In this document: positions 720 to 25,937 of the stretch, one piece after another
Position numbering within the stretch: the first letter of the stretch is position 1
Layout of the letters: each line of letters opens with the position of its first letter
NCBI GenBank assembly: GCA_018652335.1
Contig: JABICI010000023.1
Coordinates: 1 to 48,703 of the forward strand
DNA from: Flavobacteriales bacterium
GTDB taxonomy: Bacteria; Bacteroidota; Bacteroidia; Flavobacteriales; BACL11
Direction of reading: 5' to 3'
DNA length: 48,703 nt
The notes under the pieces: generated by a model
Seen by the model: only the letters and a program-made list of their open reading frames with translations
The model's database searches: none
Told to the model about the DNA's origin: nothing
Translations under genes and position numbers: made by a program

Positions 720-2696
720 TTAATAATTAAGCAAATCCTTAAGCTGTTTCTCAAATCTAGATTTAGGTAAAAACTGATCTTCAAGATTAATAGAGAAAGG
801 TACAGGTGTATCTAATGATGAAGATCTTTTTACAGGCGCATCTAAAAACTTAAAACATTTATCAGAAACTAAAGAAGCTATATCTGCTCCAAATCCACCT
901 AACATGCAATCTTCATGTAAAACGATAGCTCTTCCTGTTTTCTTTACTGATTCAATAATCGTATTTTCATCAAGAGGAATTAATGTTCTCAAGTCAATTA
1001 AATCAGCTGAAATATCATTATTTCGATTCAACACATCCAAAGCCCAATGAACTCCCATCCCATAAGAAATAATAGTAACATCACATCCAGATCTTATTAG
1101 CTTAGCTTTGCCAAGCTCAATGGTAAAATAATCATCGGATACTAAGCCAGAAACACTTCTGTAAAGAGCCTTGTGTTCAAAAAACATCACAGGGTTTGGA
1201 TCATTAATAGAAGAAATAAGTAAACCCTTAGCATCTTCTGGAAAAGCAGGATAAACAACTTTTAAACCTGGAGTATGAGTAAACCAAGCTTCATTAGATT
1301 GTGAATGAAAAGGTCCTGCTCCTACTCCAGCCCCAGTTGGCATTCTTAAAACAACATCAACATTCTCACCCCATCTATAATGTGTTTTAGCTAAATTATT
1401 TACAACGGGATTAAATCCGGAAGTTACAAAGTCAGCAAATTGCATTTCCATAACAGCTTTGAAATTATTTATAGATAATCCAAGGGATGCGCTTACAATA
1501 GCAGATTCACATATAGGTGTATTTCTAACTCTTTCTTTTCCAAATAAATTAACAAATCCATCAGTAATCTTAAAGACCCCCCCATATTCTGCAATATCCT
1601 GACCCAACAAAACTAAGTTATCATGTTTAAACATTGATTGCTTTAAACCATCTGAAATTGCATCAACTAATCGTTTCTCTGATTTTTTATCTGAAGGCGG
1701 AATTGACAAAGAAGTATAAGAACAAAAGATATCCCTGAGTTCATCATTAACATTTGGCATTATCGAGGGTTCTTTATCAGCTTGTTCCCATGATAAATTA
1801 ATTTCATTCTTGATTTTTTCTTTATAAAAACTTACATCATCTAAGTTAATAATTGACTCATCAATAAGAAAAGATTCAAAGTTATTGATTGGATCTAGTT
1901 TTTGCCATTTTTTCATTAATTTATCAGGAACATATTTAGTTCCGGAAGCCTCTTCATGACCTCTCATTCTAAAAGTCATACATTCAATAATAAATGGCCT
2001 TGCTTTTTTTGAAATTTTATTTTTAATCTTTTTAACAGTATTGTAGACATCTAATATATTATTTCCATCAATCGTATGAGCCTCTATTCCATAACCAATT
2101 CCCTTATCTGCAAAATTTTTACATCTAAACTGTTCAGAACTTGGCGTTGAAAGACCATACCCATTATTTTCTATTATAAAAATAACTGGTAAATCCCAAA
2201 CAGCCGCAACATTTAAAGCTTCATGAAAATCCCCTTCACTTGTCGCACCATCTCCAGTAAAAACAGCTGTAACCTTATTATTTTTTTTTAGTAAATTTCC
2301 TAACGCAATTCCATCAGCAACACCAAGTTGAGGTCCTAAGTGTGATATCATTCCAATGATATGATTTTTTTTTGAACCAAAATGAAATGACCTATCTCTC
2401 CCCTTTGTAAAACCATTTGCTTTTCCTTGAAATTGAGAGAAAAGTCTTCTAAATTCAATATTTTTTGTAGTAAAAACACCGAGATTTCTATGCATCGGCA
2501 AAATAAATTCATCTTCATCTAGTGCAGATGTTACTCCGACTGAAATAGCTTCTTGTCCAATACCTGAAAACCACTTTGATATTTTACCTTGCCTTAAAAG
2601 AATAAGCATTTTTTCCTCAATTAATCTAGGAACAAGAAGTGATTTGTATAAATCAACAAGATTAGTATCTGATAATCCTTTTCTATTAAATTGCAT
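720..2696 (-). CDS. 2-oxoacid (branched-chain/pyruvate-type) dehydrogenase E1, fused alpha and beta subunits
   Basis: N-terminal TPP-binding alpha region (GDGATSEGDFHEALNVAAVWDLPVIFIIENNGYGLSTP) followed by a beta region (QDIAEYGGVFKITDGF...ESAIVSASLG...EMQFADF). Confidence 0.92.
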   Translation of the reverse strand: MQFNRKGLSDTNLVDLYKSLLVPRLIEEKMLILLRQGKISKWFSGIGQEAISVGVTSALDEDEFILPMHRNLGVFTTKNIEFRRLFSQFQGKANGFTKGRDRSFHFGSKKNHIIGMISHLGPQLGVADGIALGNLLKKNNKVTAVFTGDGATSEGDFHEALNVAAVWDLPVIFIIENNGYGLSTPSSEQFRCKNFADKGIGYGIEAHTIDGNNILDVYNTVKKIKNKISKKARPFIIECMTFRMRGHEEASGTKYVPDKLMKKWQKLDPINNFESFLIDESIINLDDVSFYKEKIKNEINLSWEQADKEPSIMPNVNDELRDIFCSYTSLSIPPSDKKSEKRLVDAISDGLKQSMFKHDNLVLLGQDIAEYGGVFKITDGFVNLFGKERVRNTPICESAIVSASLGLSINNFKAVMEMQFADFVTSGFNPVVNNLAKTHYRWGENVDVVLRMPTGAGVGAGPFHSQSNEAWFTHTPGLKVVYPAFPEDAKGLLISSINDPNPVMFFEHKALYRSVSGLVSDDYFTIELGKAKLIRSGCDVTIISYGMGVHWALDVLNRNNDISADLIDLRTLIPLDENTIIESVKKTGRAIVLHEDCMLGGFGADIASLVSDKCFKFLDAPVKRSSSLDTPVPFSINLEDQFLPKSRFEKQLKDLLNY

Positions 2697-2715
2697 GTTT
2701 AAATATATTTGTGGC

Positions 2716-2723
2716 CAAATCTA
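2716..2723 (-). promoter_or_regulatory. Bacteroidetes -7 promoter motif TAGATTTG upstream of E1 dehydrogenase
   Basis: Plus-strand caaatcta = TAGATTTG on minus, 19 nt upstream of the ATG at 2696; matches TAnnTTTG. Confidence 0.45.
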
Positions 2724-2758
2724 GTTAATATTTTCTTTACTTTGTTAAAAATTAATAG

Positions 2759-2869
2759 ATGAACTGGCAAGACTTAGTTGTAAGTATAATTTTGATAATT
2801 GCGATTTATTATCTTTTTAATAGATTATATAAAAAGAAAGATTGTAATGATCATAACTGTTCCTGTTAG
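2759..2869 (+). CDS. Small Cys-rich single-TM protein (FeoB-associated Cys-rich membrane protein-like), 36 aa
   Basis: Manual translation MNWQDLVVSIILIIAIYYLFNRLYKKKDCNDHNCSC*; stop TAG directly abuts the ATG of the next gene at 2870. Below the ORF track length cutoff. Confidence 0.6.
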   Translation: MNWQDLVVSIILIIAIYYLFNRLYKKKDCNDHNCSC

Positions 2870-4702
2870 ATGTTATTCTTACTCAACTACTTACTGAAAT
2901 TAGCAGGTTTACTTGTAATATATACTACAACTAGGATTTATTTCTTTTTGAATAATAGAATAAACTTAGAAAGTTTTTCTTATATTGATTTTGTTGAAGG
3001 AATTCGGTTTGATCTGTCAGCATTAGTTTATATTAATATTCCAATTTTAATTCTACTTTTAGTTCCAACAAAATTAAGACACAATAAGGAATATCTAAAA
3101 TTAACAAATTCTTTATTTTATATTCTAAATTTCATTTTTATTGTTTTTAATAATATTGACATTGAATATTATAGATTTACTCAAAAAAGAAGCACATTTG
3201 ATTTCATTGAGCTAATTTTACTGGGAAAAGATGCAAGAAATATTATACCACAATATTTAAGTGAATACTGGAAAATTACATTATTTACTGCAGTTCAAAT
3301 TTGGTTTCTTTTTAAAATAAATAACAAATATCAATTGTATAATAGCTCTTTAAAAAAGAATATTTTTAAAAGAATTCTGCCACTTTTACTTGGAACTTTA
3401 ATATTTATAATTTTAGCTAGAGGTGGCTTTCAATTAAAACCAATAAAACCAATAAATGCTGGAGAAATAAGCAACTCAAAAAACACATCTTTAATTCTAA
3501 ATACTCCATTTACTATTTTACATTCTTTAGATGAAAACAAATTAATATCTTATAGCTATTTTGATAAATTTGAGCTAGATAGTATTTACAAAACAACTCA
3601 TATTTTCGATAATAAAGATAATAAACCAAATATAATTATCTTAATAATGGAGAGTTACTCAAAGGAATATATTGGCTTTTACAACAAAGGAAATGGAAGT
3701 ACACCTTTTTTAGATAGTTTAATGCATCATAGTCTAGTATTTACAAATGCTTATGCAAATGGCTTGAAATCCATAGAAGCACTACCAGCTATTACAGCAT
3801 CTATCCCATCACTAATGGATGATCCATTTATTACTTCTAATTATGCTCAAAATAGTTTTGAAAGTATTGCATCATTACTTAATAAACAAGATTATAACAC
3901 ATCATTTTATCATGGTGGCTACAAAGGAACTATGGGCTTCTACAGTTTTTGCAAAAAAGCAAGATTTTCTGATTACTTTGGACTTGAAGAATATGATAAC
4001 ATTAATGATTTTGATAAAAGCTGGGGTATATATGACAAACCATTCTTCCAATATTTTGCAGAAAATGTAAACATAAAAGGAGAACCTTTCTTTAGTACTT
4101 TCTTTTCCTTAAGTTCTCATCCACCATACACTTTACCAAATGATTATTTAAAAGAAATTGACGAGGAAAGTAGAATTGGAATTAGAGAAACGATTTTATA
4201 TTCAGATTTTTCGATGAAAAATTTCTTTAATAATGTAAAAAATAAAAAATGGTTTAATAACACAATTTTTATAATAACAGCTGATCATACATCTGCAGAA
4301 AATTTTAATATCAAATACAATAATAAAATTGGTAGATATACAATACCATTAATTATTTATGCTCCTGACAGTTCATTTAAAGGAATAAATAGTAATGTGG
4401 TACAGCAAATTGACATCATGCCTACAGTTTTAGATATAATCGGATATAATAAGCCATTTTTCTCATTTGGAAAGTCAATGTTTTCAGAAAATAATTGGGC
4501 AATCAACTATATTCAGAATGAATATTGTTTAATAAAAGATAATTCAATTATCTTAAGTAAAACTGAAAATTATAGTTCTTATAAAGATTGGAGTTTAACT
4601 GATACAAACATGATTAATGTTAATAACATCAATTTATTAAAAGCAATAAAGCAAGATTACAACTACAGGATGATAAATAATAAAATTAAATATGAAAACT
4701 AG
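2870..4702 (+). CDS. LTA synthase/MdoB-like membrane sulfatase-fold phosphoglycerol/phosphoethanolamine transferase
   Basis: N-terminal TM helices, then a sulfatase-fold domain: NIIILIMESYSKEYIGFYN...TPFLDSL, SLPSLM-like SIPSLMDD, FSTFFSLSSHPPYTLP, FIITADHTS. Confidence 0.9.
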   Translation: MLFLLNYLLKLAGLLVIYTTTRIYFFLNNRINLESFSYIDFVEGIRFDLSALVYINIPILILLLVPTKLRHNKEYLKLTNSLFYILNFIFIVFNNIDIEYYRFTQKRSTFDFIELILLGKDARNIIPQYLSEYWKITLFTAVQIWFLFKINNKYQLYNSSLKKNIFKRILPLLLGTLIFIILARGGFQLKPIKPINAGEISNSKNTSLILNTPFTILHSLDENKLISYSYFDKFELDSIYKTTHIFDNKDNKPNIIILIMESYSKEYIGFYNKGNGSTPFLDSLMHHSLVFTNAYANGLKSIEALPAITASIPSLMDDPFITSNYAQNSFESIASLLNKQDYNTSFYHGGYKGTMGFYSFCKKARFSDYFGLEEYDNINDFDKSWGIYDKPFFQYFAENVNIKGEPFFSTFFSLSSHPPYTLPNDYLKEIDEESRIGIRETILYSDFSMKNFFNNVKNKKWFNNTIFIITADHTSAENFNIKYNNKIGRYTIPLIIYAPDSSFKGINSNVVQQIDIMPTVLDIIGYNKPFFSFGKSMFSENNWAINYIQNEYCLIKDNSIILSKTENYSSYKDWSLTDTNMINVNNINLLKAIKQDYNYRMINNKIKYEN

Positions 4703-23995: not shown

Positions 23996-24379
23996 TCACT
24001 CTTTACTATTAAAAGAGATAAATATATTTATCCAAATTAATCTTGATAAAAAATAAACAACAGGAGAGATAATAATTAGTGAAATTGAAATAATAATAAT
24101 TTCATTTATAACATTTATACTATTAAAAAATAAACTTAAAGCTAGCCAAATTATCAAAAATACAGATACTGAAAGTGCGTAACTAACATACATAGCGCCA
24201 TACCAAAAACCTAATTCTATCTCAAATTTAAGATTACAACTTTTACAGCTACCTAAATCGCCATTATTTTTAACAAAAATATTAGTATATGGATTATTTC
24301 TAGGCCAAAATTTTGAGGATTGGCACCTAGGACAAACATTGTTTAAAATACTATATGCTTTTGTTCCTTTTGTAAACAT
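23996..24379 (-). CDS. DUF983 family membrane protein
   Basis: Two CxxC pairs (CPRCQSSKFW, CKSCNLKFE) followed by TM helices and ELGFWYGAMYVSYAL. Confidence 0.85.
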   Translation of the reverse strand: MFTKGTKAYSILNNVCPRCQSSKFWPRNNPYTNIFVKNNGDLGSCKSCNLKFEIELGFWYGAMYVSYALSVSVFLIIWLALSLFFNSINVINEIIIISISLIIISPVVYFLSRLIWINIFISFNSKE

Positions 24380-24387
24380 AATTTAAT

Positions 24388-25461
24388 TTAAAACTTAATT
24401 TCTTTTTTAACATTATTCCAAAATTTAAAAAAGGATGGAAAATCACCTTTCACACTACACAACCAATCTCTATTATCTTCAATTCCTTTATAGTTAAAGT
24501 TTAGAGGATGTTCCTTAAAAAAAATATTATTAGATTTTTTCGGTATATCTTGAAATTCACCAACGAAAACCTTAATATCTTTAATGTTTTTTGATAATTC
24601 AAGCATGAAATTCATTGAATTATCACTAATAGGATACTTTTTAAAAATACTGGGTTCTATTAAAAGAATTCTATGAGCATCAATATCATTACGCCAAACT
24701 GGGTCAAGATTATAATAATTATATACACATATATCCTTATTATCATTTAAAATTAATTGATCAGATTCTGGAAAATTTGTTTCTCTTATTTCTTTAGAAA
24801 TTTCTGAAAATATTGCAGGTTGTGACATTTCAGATATTACATCATAGCTAGTATCTAAGAATGTATTTTTTTGAATGACTTTTGTGTATTTATTAATATT
24901 ATCTTGATTTGCTATATATTTCTTGTTACTGTTAGCTCCACAAACCCATTGCCAGCTTAATGAATTAGATGCTAAATCTCCATCGAGCAAATAAAAGTAC
25001 ATCCAATTTGCAGGATCATTCCATCTAAATTTTGCAATGTTTGTTGCTAAAAAAGCAATATACATCCTTAAATGATTATGCATGTAGCCAGTCTTATATA
25101 ATTCTTTAATTGAGGAGTCGAGGACATTAATACCAGTCTTTGCATCAGTTATACACTTAGAAATACCATTTTCATTAACATCTGTTTGGATATTTTTAAT
25201 ATCCTTGTTTATATCTTTTAACTGCCAGATTAACTGCCAATAATCTCTCCAAGCTAATTCCTGTACAAATTTTTCAATTTCATTAAAATGATATTCTTTT
25301 TCTTTTAAGTTTTGAAAAACTTGCTTTGTAGATATTACACCTCTAGAAATAAAAGGAGATAGCATAGATACTGATCCATCAATAAAATTTCGAGTTCTAG
25401 CATACTGTACTGGATTGATTAAGTCAATTCTTTTTAAAATATCAGCATATTTAGTAATCAT
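24388..25461 (-). CDS. Cryptochrome/photolyase-like FAD-binding domain protein with C-terminal extra segment
   Basis: FVQELAWRDYWQ, HNHLRMYIAF, WMYFYLLDGDLASNSLSWQWVCGANSNKKYIANQDNINKY; the protein begins near the FAD domain and ends with HRILLIEPSIFKKYPIS...IKVFVGEFQDIP...KEHPLNFNYKG. Confidence 0.88.
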   Translation of the reverse strand: MITKYADILKRIDLINPVQYARTRNFIDGSVSMLSPFISRGVISTKQVFQNLKEKEYHFNEIEKFVQELAWRDYWQLIWQLKDINKDIKNIQTDVNENGISKCITDAKTGINVLDSSIKELYKTGYMHNHLRMYIAFLATNIAKFRWNDPANWMYFYLLDGDLASNSLSWQWVCGANSNKKYIANQDNINKYTKVIQKNTFLDTSYDVISEMSQPAIFSEISKEIRETNFPESDQLILNDNKDICVYNYYNLDPVWRNDIDAHRILLIEPSIFKKYPISDNSMNFMLELSKNIKDIKVFVGEFQDIPKKSNNIFFKEHPLNFNYKGIEDNRDWLCSVKGDFPSFFKFWNNVKKEIKF

Positions 25462-25937
25462 AATATAATTTTATTTTTAACTAAATCTTGAAATGTTAAA
25501 ATATTTGATTCAGAAAATGTTTTGAATTTATCTACATTAAAAAGAAATAACTCATGATCTCCATTAATTGCAAATGAGTTTTTCTTATCAATTTTAATTA
25601 AAGCAATTGTTCCATGTAAAACTTCAAAATCATTCCAGTTAATTAATAACTTTTTATCTCTTAAAAATTTATCCTTATTAAATTTATATCCAGATTTTTT
25701 ACCAAATTTCTTAACAAGTTCAATTTGATTTTTTGATAAAAGTTGTAAAACAAATTGATTAGAATTTTTAACATTTTTGTATGTTAAAGTATTATAATCT
25801 ATTGCAATTGCATAAATTTTAGGTTTCATACTTACTGCAGTGACATAAGTACAAATATTCATATTAATTTTACCTTTTTCATCAACAGTTTGAAGACTAT
25901 AGATTGGAGAATCAATTATATTCCAAGGACGTTTCAT
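25458..25937 (-). CDS. Flavin reductase-like (FMN-binding split barrel) protein
   Basis: IDSPIYSLQTVDEKGKINMNICTYVTAVSMKPKIYAIAIDYNTLTYKNVKNSNQFVLQLL; overlaps the photolyase-like start by 4 nt. Confidence 0.8.
   Translation of the reverse strand: MKRPWNIIDSPIYSLQTVDEKGKINMNICTYVTAVSMKPKIYAIAIDYNTLTYKNVKNSNQFVLQLLSKNQIELVKKFGKKSGYKFNKDKFLRDKKLLINWNDFEVLHGTIALIKIDKKNSFAINGDHELFLFNVDKFKTFSESNILTFQDLVKNKIIL

Follow-up and report, generated by a model that had tools for sequence, protein, structure and literature searches.

The window analysed here, a 48,703-nucleotide stretch of DNA, lies on contig C56 of a draft genome (1.57 Mb, 87.6% complete) from a marine member of the Bacteroidota. Two genes on its minus strand, one for a photolyase and one for a flavin-reductase-like protein that we call RED24, comprise the following features:

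24388..25461, minus strand: inverted-topology photolyase (NewPHL/SPL-like), 357 aa, assigned from a PF03441 match, a 47-row alignment, an AlphaFold2 model and trees
24763..25461, minus strand: helical FAD/catalytic domain at the N terminus, approximately residues 1-233, with a Foldseek match to class I photolyases (E=3.5e-7) and conserved Trp-dyad, FAD-site and cyclobutane pyrimidine dimer (CPD)-site residues
24391..24735, minus strand: alpha/beta domain at the C terminus, approximately residues 243-357, putative counterpart of the 'Z-domain', with five strands in AlphaFold2 models
25458..25937, minus strand: flavin-reductase-like split-barrel protein RED24, 159 aa, assigned from PF01613, PDB 4l82 and co-occurrence with the photolyase
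25458..25461, minus strand: ATGA stop/start overlap of 4 nt joining the reductase and photolyase genes, seen in the sequence and identical in relatives

A first-pass annotation of this DNA had proposed that the 357-aa protein starts at a photolyase FAD domain without an N-terminal antenna and overlaps a flavin-reductase-like split-barrel gene by 4 nt. Both points held. Profile searches matched residues 65-184 to PF03441 (FAD_binding_7; E=1.3e-20) and found no PF00875 antenna domain at the N terminus, and the partner reached by the ATGA overlap matched PF01613 (E=4e-16; 59.9 bits against a curated cutoff of 27). Directly downstream lies a 127-aa gene (23996-24379, minus strand) with the zinc-ribbon and transmembrane look of a DUF983-type protein, below curated cutoffs.

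The photolyase gene belongs to a conserved family. When 84,980 species genomes were scanned once, 108 relatives emerged. Flavobacteriia and further Bacteroidota supplied most of them, and a few came from metagenome-assembled genomes (MAGs) that carry the labels Verrucomicrobia, Gammaproteobacteria or those of other groups; for the best 80 of the 108, the match spanned most or all of the query. An alignment with 47 relatives had a mean column identity of 60%, and conservation extended into the C-terminal segment (invariant residues there include Y250, D253, W256, P277, H318, P319 and G326), which argues that the frame and its tail are both real. A chance or mis-called ORF was rejected, since more than 100 relatives match, most of them over the full length. 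Of the 198 genomes from the order, 28 carried a full-length copy (E<1e-100), as did 18 of the 396 sampled from the phylum. Origins in mobile elements were also rejected: phage matches were ordinary photolyases covering at most 45%, and the sole near relatives on plasmid records came from Persicobacter megaplasmids.

Some copies stood apart. Four MAGs labelled Rhodobacteraceae or Gammaproteobacteria (L016, L032, L049 and L069) carry a Bacteroidota-type gene, and these taxon labels are likely binning errors; the neighbours in L016 are the same as those in Flavobacteriaceae L007-L009. Two copies appeared to be decaying, one (G045:C4:169777-170019) reduced to 83 C-terminal residues, in an 82-aa frame, and the other (G070:C1:252968-254035) bearing seven internal stops.

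Compared with Anacystis photolyase and class I proteins, the 357-aa protein retains N166, the asparagine at FAD N5, together with E68, W71, N129, M133 and W172, the equivalents of the CPD-contacting positions of known photolyases. Across the 47 relatives, each of these five was either invariant or conserved at 90% or more, and the FAD- and CPD-binding set kept in the family also includes D160 and D162. Such conservation speaks against a signalling cryptochrome, whose FAD domain would sense light while the C-terminal domain, together with the reductase-like partner, relayed redox state, with no DNA repair. That reading would accommodate the reduced architecture, the coupled flavin partner and one relative, L078, that lacks the CPD-site Glu and Met, yet the gene sits in DNA-photolyase clusters rather than beside signalling genes, and we regard a purely sensory role as very unlikely. 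The L078 protein itself (L078:5001-6074) has Gln in place of the CPD-site Glu and Leu in place of the Met, and because of these replacements it is a candidate for altered substrate or lost repair. Of the tryptophans for photoreduction, the dyad W170 and W147 was invariant in the 47-sequence alignment; no Trp stands at the third triad position in the alignment with Anacystis photolyase, as that stretch is missing from the 357-aa protein.

FAD-domain trees placed the family among photolyases of inverted domain order. The Bacteroidota proteins were monophyletic (100/99) and joined inverted alphaproteobacterial and Deinococcus proteins, with class I split off by a 100/99 branch; a wider FAD-domain tree likewise grouped the family with inverted members. 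Deinococcus SPL-type proteins formed the nearest branch (support 84/86 and 85/73). NewPHLs were represented in these trees by proxies, namely inverted-order proteins from Ruegeria, Peteryoungia, Asticcacaulis, Novosphingobium and Niveispirillum, with Roseobacter-type relatives standing for the true NewPHLs. With that representation, assignment of the family to the inverted-topology photolyases (NewPHL/SPL), as a distinct Bacteroidota clade, is well supported at the sequence level. The proposed photolyase identity and reversed domain order are supported by the PF03441 match without an N-terminal antenna, the conserved sites, the trees and the AlphaFold model. An Fe-S SPL subgroup was rejected: the four-Cys Fe-S set was not conserved among 81 sequences and is present in Deinococcus L086/L087.

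The reversed domain order is real and already published for such enzymes. Inverted topology, CPD repair in single-stranded DNA (ssDNA) and the 'Z-domain' all appear in PMC13274461 and PMC9426592. According to the latter, picocyanobacteria carry the reversed topology as Phr4-7, and Phr7, with an N-terminal FAD domain and a C-terminal Z-domain, is of the type that repairs CPDs in ssDNA in Dinoroseobacter and Methylobacterium. As NewPHL/SPL and Phr4-7 have been described, the topology found here is not new.

Several differences nonetheless set the Bacteroidota family apart. It shares with NewPHL (Emmerich et al. 2020 NAR, doi 10.1093/nar/gkaa1147, as relayed in PMC9426592, PMC13274461 and PMC8948257) the N-terminal FAD domain, the small C-terminal domain and the Trp dyad, and, like the alphaproteobacterial proxies, it lacks the Fe-S cysteines; however, it forms a separate clade, and its C-terminal domain could not be aligned by profile with that of the proxies. 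Neighbours differ as well, being PF01613 reductases and 6-4 photolyases in the Bacteroidota family and genes for a UbiB-family kinase or an NAD(P)-binding protein in the alphaproteobacterial relatives examined. SPL (Xu et al. 2021 MBE, doi 10.1093/molbev/msab191, as relayed in PMC9649867 and PMC9178010) is similar in having no N-terminal alpha/beta domain and an FAD domain most like those of class I/III CPD photolyases, but the Bacteroidota family is without the four cysteines, and the Deinococcus C-terminal domain matches PF00875 whereas the Bacteroidota one does not. Picocyanobacterial Phr6/Phr4+Phr5 and Phr7 have the reversed domain order and, in Phr7, the short Z-domain; they belong to another phylum, and the available text of PMC9426592 does not mention a reductase pairing for them. 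The CPD-site and FAD-site residues are common to class I CPD photolyases (for example, PDB 1tez and 1dnp), from which the 357-aa protein departs in having no N-terminal antenna, no third triad Trp and an FAD domain cut short at its end, where PF03441 is matched at positions 1-128 of 203.

The first-pass annotation had also read the C-terminal segment as a Rossmann-like piece and as an antenna moved to the C terminus. We ran AlphaFold2 with 47 aligned sequences, and the full-length model was confident (pLDDT 95.1, pTM 0.92), as was the fold of the isolated C-terminal 126 residues (pLDDT 90). Residues 243-357 were modelled with strands at 243-248, 262-268, 296-300, 313-316 and 327-329 plus helices, in keeping with the Rossmann-like description apart from one extra strand at the start. 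In Foldseek searches, the matches listed for the full model were photolyases and cryptochromes only, with the FAD domain aligned over about 210 columns (E=3.5e-7). The isolated C-terminal domain gave a best E of 0.087 against the PDB, with no photolyase among the matches listed.

The idea of a moved antenna therefore stood only in part: the Rossmann-like five-strand piece matched an antenna profile marginally, though in the expected register, but Foldseek returned no photolyase and shuffled columns could do as well. In hhalign comparisons with a broader antenna profile, residues 265-312 fell on the beta2-alpha2-beta3 register with marginal significance (E=0.0087), a score equalled by 1 of 150 column shuffles; a narrow antenna profile built from neighbouring photolyases gave no match. 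The Deinococcus counterpart matched the antenna profile at E=1.9e-5 and PF00875 at E=7e-4 (below the curated cutoff). The alphaproteobacterial C-terminal domain resembled the Deinococcus one (E=3e-4), and similarity between the Bacteroidota and alphaproteobacterial domains was not detectable by hhalign (E=0.31). With a clear antenna match in the Deinococcus counterpart only, a link from it to the alphaproteobacterial domain and a marginal match here, an antenna origin of the C-terminal domain seems plausible for the inverted group as a whole and weaker for the Bacteroidota family. In the strongest form of the idea, the segment would be a genuine antenna domain, circularly permuted and with a light-harvesting cofactor still bound. 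Its strand order in the AlphaFold2 model would fit antenna beta1-beta5, the marginal profile match is in the correct register and the Deinococcus equivalent matches antenna domains clearly; against this, helices alpha1, alpha3 and alpha4 are missing, the structural search of the domain listed no photolyase and a shuffled profile could reach the same score, so that we hold a working permuted antenna to be unlikely. On a plasmid of Deinococcus sp. QL22 (L091), the FAD domain (1878-2651) and the C-terminal alpha/beta domain (2648-3169) are separate genes with a 4-nt overlap, a split that resembles Phr4/Phr5 of marine Synechococcus.

The pairing with RED24 is the newer part of the finding. RED24 resembles PF01613 flavin reductases of the HpaC, StyB and RutF type in its split-barrel match over most of its length, and its best PDB match was 4l82 (E=1.6e-7); it differs from them as a photolyase-linked family of its own, scoring far under all NCBIfam equivalog cutoffs. 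The conserved pairing that had been suggested was borne out by a gene-neighbourhood survey. RED24 lay directly upstream with the identical 4-nt overlap at nine loci from several families (the window, L014, L078, L099, L100, L104, L105, L106 and L107), and it is nearly restricted to genomes that carry the photolyase. In the order, 15 of the 16 genomes with RED24 (among 198) also had the photolyase (p=4e-14, with genomes treated as independent and shared ancestry ignored); in the phylum sample the figure was 5 of 6 (among 396; p=6e-7, genomes again treated as independent). The two genes co-occur in no fewer than four families of the order, plus two others of the class, and in several genomes they do so while sitting far apart or on different contigs. 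At 59 of 81 loci, however, no same-strand reductase was present within four genes, and an obligate pairing was rejected as frequent rather than universal. What survives of the proposed coupled, dedicated flavin partner is thus a non-random link to a flavin-reductase-like gene; 'dedicated' is too strong, because nine of the loci read carry the reductase next to the photolyase and at others it is elsewhere or missing.

The wider neighbourhood is rich in photolyases. A full-length photolyase gene lay within four genes at 54 of 81 loci, of the 6-4 (DPRP) type at 41 and DASH-like at 31. DPRP 6-4 photolyases were found in 17 of the 18 phylum-sample genomes with the inverted gene, compared with 132 in the whole sample of 396 (p=5e-8), and within 12 kb of the inverted gene in 11 of the 18. 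Two more photolyases are encoded in the window's own genome, one of class I on contig C87 (431-aa frame) and one DASH-like on C137 (504 aa), so the inverted gene is not its sole photolyase gene; a DPRP-type 6-4 photolyase was not found in this 87.6% complete draft.

Other genes recur in these clusters. RED2, a second and different PF01613 family of about 210 aa (PF01613 E=5e-17), was present at 19 loci on the same strand and no more than four genes away. Found in 61 of 396 genomes, it shared 52 of them with a DPRP photolyase and sat within 12 kb of it in 17, and its enrichment with the inverted photolyase was weak (p=0.003) and less specific than that of RED24. Across Bacteroidota, RED2 (L005:7536-8168 and relatives) adjoins DPRP 6-4 photolyase genes, about 46 bp apart in G499, G153, G056 and G114, and is perhaps a general photolyase partner. 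A DUF2805 (PF10985) gene, present at L010:4677-4964 and at 26 further loci, is often the immediate upstream neighbour of the inverted photolyase gene. Bacteroidota photolyase clusters also share a recurring conserved protein (about 140 aa, no Pfam match), which makes up a trio together with the reductase and the inverted photolyase. The window locus lacks this protein, which was located as follows:

L055:8328-8753, protein of about 140 aa
L099:4693-5115, protein of about 140 aa
L104:1302-1724, protein of about 140 aa
L105:5583-6011, protein of about 140 aa
L106:5376-5798, protein of about 140 aa
L107:5479-5901, protein of about 140 aa

Two further readings of the pairing bear on these data. 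Reductase and photolyase might merely hitchhike in a light-stress island whose genes travel together, with no functional coupling, as the rotation of partners in the clusters (DUF2805, RED2, 6-4 photolyase and c8) and the patchy occurrence of the photolyase (28/198 genomes) could suggest. The identical overlap at nine loci in several families and a co-occurrence that persists across contigs or long distances make mere hitchhiking fairly improbable in our judgement. Alternatively, the partner might be a flavin carrier or external antenna, an FMN-binding split barrel that hands over FAD or light energy and replaces the lost antenna. The same adjacency and co-occurrence would fit, as would a C-terminal domain too small for a clear antenna pocket, but the PF01613 matches above cutoff are flavin reductase families and RED2, also of PF01613, accompanies photolyases that do have antenna domains; a carrier or antenna function is an improbable one.

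Photolyases function only with FADH-, and cellular reduction of their FAD is generally attributed to Trp chains driven by light, along with unspecified cell reductants. We infer that the 357-aa protein repairs CPDs, with a preference for those in ssDNA by analogy with characterised NewPHLs. Its N-terminal FAD domain would bind the flipped-out dimer, and under blue light, electron transfer from FADH- would split it; the short C-terminal alpha/beta domain, probably not, or no longer, a full antenna, would pack on the FAD domain and probably close the FAD site. RED24 and the photolyase would be made from the same message through the stop/start overlap (translational coupling), and RED24 would most likely use NAD(P)H to provide reduced flavin, such that the photolyase starts as FADH- despite its two-Trp chain. 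In the NewPHL of D. shibae, which has just a Trp dyad, about 90% of photoinduced radical pairs are lost within nanoseconds, according to PMC8948257. With a dyad serving that NewPHL poorly for photoreduction, a coupled NAD(P)H-flavin reductase would be a source of the reduced state, in keeping with the gene linkage.

Taken as a whole, the reading of a Bacteroidota inverted-topology CPD photolyase, probably acting on ssDNA and kept reduced by a coupled partner, is one that we hold with good confidence. The reductase role of RED24 toward the photolyase, taken singly, is a tentative proposal with somewhat less than an even chance of being right. A full two-component photolyase, which would depend on a dedicated NAD(P)H-flavin reductase, translationally coupled to it, to keep FADH- in the face of a weak photoreduction chain and to replace both the third Trp and the antenna, appears doubtful. 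Photolyase FAD is tightly bound and PF01613 proteins normally act on free flavin, a mismatch that counts against the reductase model, as do the many family members with no reductase nearby.

The first-pass annotation was right on architecture and pairing and overconfident on the antenna. The kind of enzyme is itself known; what is new is a testable link between an inverted photolyase clade and a small flavin-reductase family. Inverted photolyases have been proposed to lie near the origin of the whole superfamily, and the Bacteroidota family adds to them a clade with a minimal C-terminal domain. A small reductase family whose occurrence follows that of a single photolyase clade, and which is encoded on the same message, offers a direct test for a specific enzymatic electron donor.
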